DNA of 64,000 nt. Source: Hyphomonas sp. L-53-1-40 (GTDB lineage: Bacteria > Pseudomonadota > Alphaproteobacteria > Caulobacterales > Hyphomonadaceae). Numbering within the stretch: the stretch's first letter is position 1; the number at the start of each line of letters is the position of its first letter. The stretch spans positions 1 through 64,000 of the forward strand of contig NZ_AWFI01000020.1 of assembly GCF_000682775.1 (NCBI RefSeq), written 5' to 3'. The notes under the pieces were generated by a model. That model had not been told where the DNA came from and made no database searches. It saw only the letters and a list, made by a program, of their open reading frames with translations. This document shows positions 9,148 through 10,793 of this stretch, one piece after another. Made by a program: the position numbers and the translations under genes.

Positions 9148-10033
9148 CTATTCGGCAGGCTTGACGAATTTCAGCGTCATGCGGTCACTTTCGCCGATTT
9201 CGGCATAGGCGGCAGCGTCAAAACCGTCCGGAGTGTTGCCTTCCCGGTCCTGCGTGGCGTTGACCGGGGGCAGCGTCCAGACCCCAAACGGGTGATCCGC
9301 AGTATCGGCCGGATTGGCATTGATTTCGCTGGCTTCGACAAACTCGAACCCGGCCGCTTCGGCGAGGGATTTGACATAATCCTCATGGACGTAACCCGAA
9401 GAGGCCGTCGGGTCCTGTGTGGCCGTTGAAGGCAGGCGATGTTCGACCACGCCCAACACGCCGCCGGGCTTCAGAGCGGTATAGGCGTCCGTGAAAAATT
9501 TCTCGGTGTATCCGCCGCTCATCCAATTGTGGAGGTTGCGGAAGGTCAGCACGACGTCGGCTGTTCCCACCTCGGTCAGCGGGCCACTCTCGGACGAAAA
9601 GGCGCTGTATTCGATGGTGCCGAATTTCGGGTCGTCATAATTCGCCTGGAATTCTGCAAGGCGCTCGGCGATGCGGGCGCGACGGTCTTCATCACCAATA
9701 TTCGGGTCGAAATAGGCTGCGACCAGTGTGCCACCGCCACTGGCAAGATAGGGCGCGATGACATTTGTGTACCAGCCGCCGCACCACTTTGTCATCCGCT
9801 TCCACCCCGAAGAATTCGAGCGTTTCTTTCGGGTGACGCCAGGCGTCGCGCGCCTTTTCGGCATCCGTGCGGTGTTCGCCAGCGATCGCGGCGTCCAGCG
9901 GCGAGGCTTCGGTCGAGGCTGTCTCGACCGGCGGGGTTTCGGGGGCGGGTGTCTCTGATGCGGGTGTCTCTGGCTGGCCGCAAGCTGCCAGAACCAGTGC
10001 AGACAGGGCGATCATCGGGGTCAATTGCTTCAC
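9148..10033 (-). pseudogene. SAM-dependent methyltransferase-like lipoprotein, frameshifted
   Basis: Two frames together make one COG4798-type predicted methyltransferase with an exported N-terminus. The first part starts at a GTG (GGAG 9 bases upstream), carries the lipobox LVLAACG and a Pro/Glu/Thr-rich linker, and reaches GVEADDKVV. The second part resumes in another frame at GGWYTNVIAPYLASGGGT and runs to the natural end (MTLKFVKPAE). Intact relatives have a phrase like EIWPG between these halves, which is the SAM-binding motif I. About 14 bases are missing near 9781, shifting the frame and removing the motif. Either the gene is dead or the assembly has an error. The reading of the missing bases is inferred from the family pattern. 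Confidence 0.8.
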
Positions 10034-10175
10034 AGGGTGTCTCCTCAACAGGCCTCTTGAACCTCTCCTTACGCTACCCACATAGATCATGTCACGGTGC
10101 CGTAAATCGGGCTGTGACCAGTATCTGTCCCAACGCCGAATTCGGGTTGGTTCTTTTCAGGTGCTGAACATCCAT

Positions 10176-10226
10176 CCGGGCGCTCCCCGAACGGGTTGCC
10201 CGCAGTTGCTTGATTTAAGAGGACTG
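10176..10226 (+). promoter_or_regulatory. Probable ROSE-like RNA thermometer in the hsp20 leader
   Basis: The 5' leader of the small heat-shock gene ends in a hairpin that buries its ribosome binding site. CAG-TTGCT (10203-10210) faces AGGA-CTG (10220-10226) across a 9-nt loop. The pattern UUGCU opposite AGGA, including a G facing G, is the hallmark of ROSE elements upstream of rhizobial small heat-shock genes. A second hairpin precedes it (CGGGC at 10177-10181 with GCCCG at 10198-10202, with an inner CCC/GGG). The prediction is that heat melts the final hairpin and frees translation. I found no clear sigma-32 promoter. Confidence 0.6.
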
Positions 10227-10231
10227 AACAC

Positions 10232-10711
10232 ATGAGCAATATCGACCTTACCCCCCTTTACCGTACCGTTGTCGGCTTTGACCGGCTTGCGGGCATGATT
10301 GATCAGGCGTCTCGCCTCGACGGGTCACAAGGCTATCCCCCATACAATATCGAACGCGTTGACGAAAACGCCTTCGCCATCGAGATCGCGGTCGCGGGAT
10401 TTACCGAAGATGACCTCGAGATCGAGACGAAAGAAGGCTTGCTGACTGTGGCCGGCAAGCGCGGCGAGAATGAAGACGGCGAGGGCCGCAACTATCTGCA
10501 TCGCGGCATTGCCCAGCGCAGCTTCATCCGGCGGTATCAGCTGGCTGACCATGTCATCGTGACCGGCGCGAACCTGCAGCACGGCGTGCTGCGGATCGAC
10601 CTTATTCGCGAGCTTCCTGAAGAGAAGAAACCTCGCAAGATCGAGATTGGCGCCCCGGCAAAGTCGGAGCCGAAACTGATTGGCAAGAAATCGGCCAGCA
10701 ACGCGGCCTAA
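10232..10711 (+). CDS. Hsp20/alpha-crystallin small heat-shock protein
   Basis: The 159-residue chaperone binds unfolding proteins in the cytoplasm and holds them for refolding. It resembles the IbpA class: a short N-terminal arm (MSNIDLTPLYRTVVGFDRL), an alpha-crystallin domain at about residues 38-130 (YNIERVDENAFAIEIAVAGF through GVLRIDLIRELPE), and a C-terminal extension with KPRKIEIG, the IxI-type motif. A Lys/Ala-rich tail follows. The ATG has AGAGGA 9 bases upstream, which is sequestered in the leader hairpin. A terminator follows 26 bases after the stop, so it is a single-gene transcript. Confidence 0.93.
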   Translation: MSNIDLTPLYRTVVGFDRLAGMIDQASRLDGSQGYPPYNIERVDENAFAIEIAVAGFTEDDLEIETKEGLLTVAGKRGENEDGEGRNYLHRGIAQRSFIRRYQLADHVIVTGANLQHGVLRIDLIRELPEEKKPRKIEIGAPAKSEPKLIGKKSASNAA

Positions 10712-10737
10712 ACGCCGAGTTCTGATCAGATAAGAGA

Positions 10738-10769
10738 ACGGCGCGTCCAGAGATGGGCGCGCCGTTTTT
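10738..10769 (+). terminator. Rho-independent terminator after hsp20
   Basis: The stem ACGGCGCGTCC/GGGCGCGCCGT (one G-T pair) closes a 6-nt loop and is followed by a run of T. It stands between the hsp20 and GST genes, which converge. Confidence 0.85.
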
Positions 10770-10793
10770 CTATTTGCGAATTGTCTCTGGCGG

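Follow-up and report, generated by a model that had tools for sequence, protein, structure and literature searches.

A probable ROSE-type RNA thermometer upstream of the small heat-shock protein gene of Hyphomonas

The small heat-shock gene and its leader

The DNA analysed here, called the window throughout, is a stretch of 64,000 nt from Hyphomonas sp. L-53-1-40, and all coordinates refer to it. Its plus strand carries a gene for a small heat-shock protein (sHSP) of the HSP20 family. The gene product matches Pfam PF00011 with an E-value of 1.1e-18. Among the NCBIfam models IbpA scored best, with 152.8 bits, which lies below the 212-bit equivalog cut-off. A whole-genome search returned a single match, such that the 3.31-Mb genome has no other HSP20 gene; the homologous protein of Hyphomonas atlantica is 97% identical. 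Downstream of the gene a likely terminator was found by eye and was not reported by the automated scan. Given this terminator the gene is probably monocistronic.

The first-pass annotation had placed a ROSE-like RNA thermometer at 10176-10232. The element exceeds this stretch: a promoter-like sequence is followed by some 140 nt of leader, which comprise three stable hairpins and a weak one. The features of the locus are:

10056-10083, plus strand: sigma-32 (RpoH)-like promoter, CTTGAA (10056-10061), 15 nt, CCCACAT (10077-10083), by pattern match
10091-10118, plus strand: hairpin I, stable, with a bulged-G module (unpaired G10099, then CC..GG), by folding and covariation
10119-10166, plus strand: hairpin II, stable, interrupted by an internal loop and holding the second bulged-G module, with G10135 unpaired and the inner stem at 10130-10150, by folding and covariation
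10177-10202, plus strand: hairpin III, stable, adjoining hairpin IV without spacer, sequence variable among relatives, by folding
10203-10226, plus strand: hairpin IV, putative thermosensor, UUGCU (10206-10210) against AGGA, closed by CAG/CUG, by sequence, conservation and covariation (-3.9 kcal/mol, z -1.71)
10220-10223, plus strand: Shine-Dalgarno AGGA, predicted to be sequestered in hairpin IV, by sequence, 8 nt before the AUG
10232-10711, plus strand: small heat-shock protein gene (HSP20/IbpA-like), 159 aa, by Pfam, NCBIfam and genome search
10737-10770, plus strand: likely terminator, a GC-rich inverted repeat followed by T's, 3' of the HSP20 gene

The sequence CTTGAA-15-CCCACAT resembles a heat-shock sigma-factor promoter. 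Judged from it, transcription is expected to start at about position 10090, and the leader would then be the 5' UTR of the heat-shock gene with its AUG at 10232. A loose form of the promoter pattern, defined only after the leaders had been inspected, occurs in 51 of 53 leaders compared to 12 of 563 upstream regions of control ORFs. No sigma-70-type site was found between 9950 and 10850.

Folded alone, hairpins I and II were more stable than any of 200 shuffled sequences, with -14.2 kcal/mol (z -4.39) and -19.6 kcal/mol (z -5.01), respectively. Hairpin III, the second hairpin that the annotation had seen in front of the last one, is indeed present and abuts hairpin IV; at -13.6 kcal/mol its z-score is -1.70, and 11 of 200 shuffles were as good. 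Local folding of 52 leaders gave, in 46 of them, a hairpin of at least 5 pairs whose end lies no more than 3 nt from hairpin IV (median z -1.95). With four hairpins, each folded alone, and the Shine-Dalgarno sequence in the 3' one, the leader agrees with the ROSE-like thermometers described in PMC3669281, PMC11342760 and PMC10474464, which have two to four hairpins and occupy the 5' UTR of a heat-shock gene, mostly one for a small heat-shock protein. For the whole window leader the best fold keeping all four hairpins is about 0.4 kcal/mol worse than the minimum-energy fold, in which neither hairpin I nor hairpin IV is formed at 30 °C.

Hairpin IV and its conservation

Direct reading of the leader bears out the last hairpin as it had been described, with CAG-UUGCU facing AGGA-CUG over the ribosome binding site. 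Its 5' side runs C10203-A-G-U-U-G-C-U10210, followed by a loop of nine bases (10211-10219) and the 3' side A10220-G-G-A10223-C-U-G10226. The pairs, in shortened numbering, are C203-G226, A204-U225, G205-C224, U206-A223, U207.G222, C209-G221 and U210-A220. G208 is either unpaired or opposed by a G, such that the U(U/C)GCU sequence (10206-10210) pairs imperfectly with the Shine-Dalgarno sequence (10220-10223), as in the proposed ROSE signature.

This arrangement is strongly conserved. Among 80 relative loci, chosen on protein similarity alone, every one carries U(U/C)GCU opposite a Shine-Dalgarno sequence of AGG type before the start codon (AGGA in 78, AGGG and AGGT in one each). A stricter test demanded the core with AGGA, at least three strictly registered outer pairs and a distance of at most 50 nt from the start. 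It was passed by 68 of the 80 leaders, by dinucleotide shuffles at a frequency of 0.0005 (0.05%) each, and by none of 701 control leaders of other long ORFs from the same loci and the window. With looser Shine-Dalgarno letters the core was also found in 36 of 39 non-alphaproteobacterial leaders and in all 31 further alphaproteobacterial leaders, two of whose genomes (G037 and G057) belong to the earlier set as well. These 39 and 31 leaders belong to the strongest IbpA matches out of 157 genomes with a match.

The core pattern by itself was dropped as evidence, as it is as common in the genome as a reversed control: TYGCT-N3-14-AGGA occurs 267 + 245 times in the whole genome compared to 286 + 217 times for the reversed pattern. 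The significance of the core therefore rests on position, covariation and conservation. Taken alone hairpin IV is also not unusually stable, being only marginally above shuffles (z -1.71, 15 of 200 as good). Both observations would suit the view that the leader holds no RNA element and that merely a promoter and the surroundings of the Shine-Dalgarno sequence are conserved. In hairpins I, II and IV, however, paired positions show compensatory changes, which contradict this view, and we regard it as extremely improbable.

Covariation of the leader structure

Within the Hyphomonas-Henriciella-Hirschia group hairpin IV is nearly invariant. The exception is a Hirschia leader (L052), which has CUG/CAG instead of CAG/CUG, i.e. 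one pair changed on both sides. Across the wider alphaproteobacteria the outer stem of the hairpin changes repeatedly and mostly stays paired, with variants that include CAG/CUG, CUG/CAG, AUA/UAU, ACA/UGU, GAG/CUC and others. To quantify this the register was set blind to pairing, which left 104 of 112 leaders usable. In these, 86.9% of the cells were paired compared to 52.2% after shuffling (maximum of 1000 shuffles: 58.7%) and to 9.6-30.8% in slid registers. When only the 51 distinct combinations were counted, 77.1% of cells were paired compared to 46.5% in shuffles (maximum 56.9%). The shuffle controls, here and below, ignore the relatedness of the sequences, while the slid-register controls do not.

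For the whole structure 95.7% of the cells were paired in 52 leaders, compared to 31-50% in slid versions. Changes on both sides were seen at 21 pairs, 20 of which belong to the 25 pairs of hairpins I and II: 8 of 11 pairs in hairpin I and 12 of 14 in hairpin II, the latter counted as helices 2-4. Hairpin III was left out of this count because its alignment was too poor. Cells changed on both sides numbered 154 compared to 53.4 in shuffles, and none of 500 shuffles reached any of the five measures.

Comparison with the Rfam ROSE models

The Rfam search that the annotation had proposed as a check returned no ROSE match, and the models turned out to be too narrow to decide. No family, RF00435, RF01832 and RF02523 included, gave a match at or above gathering in the 64,000-nt window or in the loci of 20 relatives. 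ROSE (RF00435, gathering 45 bits) did not even reach E<=10 at the locus; in the genome it has one match, on another contig, with E 9.27. ROSE_2 (RF01832, gathering 65 bits) has no match in the genome at E<=10. ROSE_3 (RF02523, gathering 43 bits) has no full match, and the sole trace of a ROSE model in the leader is a 19-nt piece of it in hairpin II (model positions 5-23, 15.2 bits). As positive controls, ROSE_2 scored the E. coli element with 100.4 bits and ROSE_3 scored another leader (L263) with 77 bits.

In a scan of 190 alphaproteobacterial genomes RF00435 did not reach its cut-off once, under stricter filters at which weak matches are lost. At E<=0.01 it had matches in eight genomes. Six of the eight precede proteins that read as HSP20-like, and the four of these six that were put to Pfam were all HSP20. 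RF02523 gave nine matches at E<=0.05 in the 190 genomes, none above the cut-off and one of them (L194) before an HSP20 gene. A ROSE_3 match of 32.8 bits, likewise below the cut-off, lies just 5' of a gene that reads as a ClpB-like chaperone (L191, G123:C9:2091-2160). It has the bulged-G hairpin and is without the U(U/C)GCU core.

A model built from the 52 leaders (R1) found the present leader in its own genome with an E-value of 1.7e-28, the only other match having E 0.99. R1 was also run on 70 sources minus the two that provided training leaders (68). Up to E 1 it returned 23 matches: 18 overlap a leader or end at one (start codons checked for five), and one falls in the window at a distance from the leader. 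With a limit of E<=0.05, chosen afterwards, 16 of 17 matches were at leaders, counting one leader twice since it is present as both L156 and L082. Three of the 16 (L155, L156 and L157) overlap sub-threshold RF00435 matches. R1 is a weak detector and missed most other leaders. Class-wide matches of R1 in other genomes with E between 2.6e-4 and 0.0094 were dropped as evidence, because the five beyond Hyphomonas had no HSP20 gene behind them by reading.

The ROSE-type reading is well supported: motif, position, covariation and anatomy agree, and leaders of this type overlap sub-threshold RF00435 matches. The part of the earlier claim that did not stand is a match to the curated models. By description and profile overlap the element is ROSE-like, and it falls outside the Rfam families in their curated form. 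The curated ROSE models miss this family of marine alphaproteobacteria, which suggests that they under-report the class.

Relation to known ROSE systems

The annotation had seen the interest of the leader in its lying outside rhizobia, which does not hold. PMC3669281 describes ROSE elements for Caulobacter crescentus, Salmonella, E. coli and Pseudomonas, and the candidates in alpha- and gammaproteobacteria number over 40. In addition, a Gluconobacter ROSE was assigned by Rfam (PMC5756330) and ROSE-like thermometers occur at ABC transporter genes in several classes (PMC11342760). The class outside rhizobia is thus already established, and the Hyphomonas leader is an ordinary and mostly expected case of it. 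Our literature search, which covered few subscription journals, found no published ROSE thermometer for Hyphomonas or Hyphomonadaceae. The leader extends a textbook class of RNA thermometers, with covariation evidence, to a marine alphaproteobacterial family.

With RF00435, whose type member is ROSE1 of Bradyrhizobium hspA, the leader shares the small heat-shock gene, several hairpins, U(U/C)GCU against AGGA in the 3' hairpin and, in the structure line, a 5' hairpin of the form stem-bulge-CC-loop-GG-stem. In contrast to the 94-position model it is longer, has two bulged-G hairpins and an outer stem of CAG/CUG. ROSE_3 likewise has a 5' hairpin with a bulged G before CC..GG, but only two hairpins over 69 positions. 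The E. coli ibpA element (ROSE_2) resembles the leader in having UCGCU against AGGA before an sHSP gene as well as a bulged-G hairpin, which lies mostly upstream of the part modelled by Rfam; RF01832 nevertheless finds nothing in the Hyphomonas genome, as given above. The short ROSE-like elements of Pseudomonas ibpA combine a stable 5' with a weak 3' hairpin under sigma-32 control, but have two hairpins in 61-62 nt rather than four in about 140 nt. When tested, their 5' hairpin stayed closed while the 3' hairpin melted (PMC3669281 for both statements).

Thermometer mechanism and folding energies

We consider it very probable that the leader, of about 140 nt, acts as a ROSE-type RNA thermometer with a predicted transcription start, melting and effect on translation as follows. 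The transcript would be made from the heat-shock sigma-factor promoter, and the stable hairpins I-III would frame the weak hairpin IV. UUGCU would pair imperfectly with the Shine-Dalgarno AGGA around the unpaired or G-G-opposed G, such that at normal temperature the ribosome site would be covered. Warming would open hairpin IV while hairpins I-III remain folded, and the chaperone would be translated.

Energy calculations predict only a weak opening by heat for the Hyphomonas leader. The 106-nt piece 10140-10245 was not unusually stable (z -0.08). In a longer context the unpaired probability of AGGA increased gradually from 0.43 to 0.67 between 20 and 50 °C. For the window leader in a 148-nt context the outer stem of hairpin IV had a probability of 0.82 at 25 °C compared to 0.81 at 42 °C, such that no change is predicted. 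Among the 52 leaders this probability exceeded 0.5 at 25 °C in 42 and was lower at 42 °C in 40. For 117 thermometer leaders AGGA went from 0.29 to 0.42 unpaired, compared to 0.43 to 0.52 in those leaders of control ORFs that have AGGA. When the E. coli ibpA thermometer was treated likewise, it did not open (0.36 to 0.31). The calculation is therefore of little power either way, and the temperature curves were dropped as evidence.

A structure that lowers translation at all temperatures, with heat induction coming solely from the sigma-32-type promoter, would fit the weak opening in the energy folding and the promoter-like sequence in 51 of 53 leaders. Such a constitutive damper need not conserve the imperfect pairing of U(U/C)GCU around an unpaired G, yet the core is kept in 36 of 39 non-alphaproteobacterial and 31 of 31 alphaproteobacterial leaders. 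In tested members of the class, moreover, heat induction is reduced or lost when that G is deleted, either by itself or together with a change next to it (PMC3669281, PMC11342760). We therefore consider a damper very unlikely compared to a thermometer.

Bulged-G module and possible control by the chaperone

The 5' hairpins share a module in which a stem with free letters is followed by one unpaired G, CC, a loop, GG and the stem again. Its definition (stem of at least 5, G, CC, loop, GG) drew on prior inspection of the folds and of the ROSE_3 alignment, such that the first counts, 51/53 for Hyphomonas-group leaders, 25/28 for distant named and 22/31 for same-order leaders, are partly circular. 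Other letters at the bulge were found in 0-2 leaders each per set, and 3-4% of shuffles had the module. Leaders fetched later serve as a held-out test: the module was present in 30 of 31 alphaproteobacterial and 20 of 39 non-alphaproteobacterial leaders, and no other bulge letter occurred in any. Among 570 control ORF leaders the module occurred in 24 with G at the bulge, compared to 8, 9 and 4 with A, C and U, respectively. By this definition it is absent from 19 of the 39 non-alphaproteobacterial leaders, L222-L228 among them. In the Hyphomonas group it occurs in tandem, once each in hairpins I and II, in 51 of 52 leaders, the exception being L052; this repetition is the less expected feature of the leader. 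The E. coli ibpA leader carries it as well. The module is part of the known class, as both ROSE_3 and, judged from the structure line, RF00435 have it for their 5' hairpin.

In a second mode of control, which might be the main role of the leader, the sHSP would bind its own leader and block translation until aggregates titrate it off. Hairpin IV would then respond to protein rather than to heat, or alternatively both inputs would act on one leader. E. coli IbpA represses its own translation via the 5' UTR, for which R93 and an aromatic residue at Y34 are needed; it binds its own leader and seems to bind structured RNA. IbpA of Vibrio harveyi is self-repressing too, and the authors suggest conservation in alphaproteobacteria (all according to PMC10474464). 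By alignment the Hyphomonas protein has both Y34 and R93. These are kept in 80 of 80 relatives, in which positions 97 and 98 hold only R or K. The two residues may, however, be kept for other reasons, and in gammaproteobacteria the feedback coexists with the thermometer and does not replace it. Feedback is thus an addition to the thermometer more than its rival, and for Hyphomonas we regard it as possible though rather less likely than not to apply.

The bulged-G hairpin might be a site for IbpA, and as such it is a concrete candidate RNA site for chaperone control of its own synthesis. More specifically, the module could be the docking site for the R93/Y34 face of the sHSP, which would make the ROSE leader a two-input device. 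In the Hyphomonas group, hairpins I and II would be two tandem sites in addition to hairpin IV, which would melt on heating. If true, this would assign a function to the ROSE 5' hairpins, whose role has been described as not fully understood, and would locate the RNA element through which IbpA represses itself. According to PMC3669281, however, ROSE1 responds more weakly to heat once its 5' hairpins are lost, and disruption of hairpin I opens the Pseudomonas thermometer. These effects fit a plain folding role and, together with the absence of the module from 19 of the 39 non-alphaproteobacterial leaders, argue against docking, which we consider unlikely.

Neighbouring gene and related loci

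The divergent neighbour on the minus strand (9148-10090) reads as a lipoprotein-like methyltransferase-type gene and is broken across two frames in the window; either a genuine frameshift or an error in sequencing could be the cause. Intact versions are found at five related loci (L003, L004, L005, L007 and L016). Four other loci titled Sulfopaludibacter or Acidobacteria (L023, L030, L032 and L034) carry sHSP genes 79-83% identical to the Hyphomonas gene with a similar leader; probably these are metagenome bins that were mislabelled.
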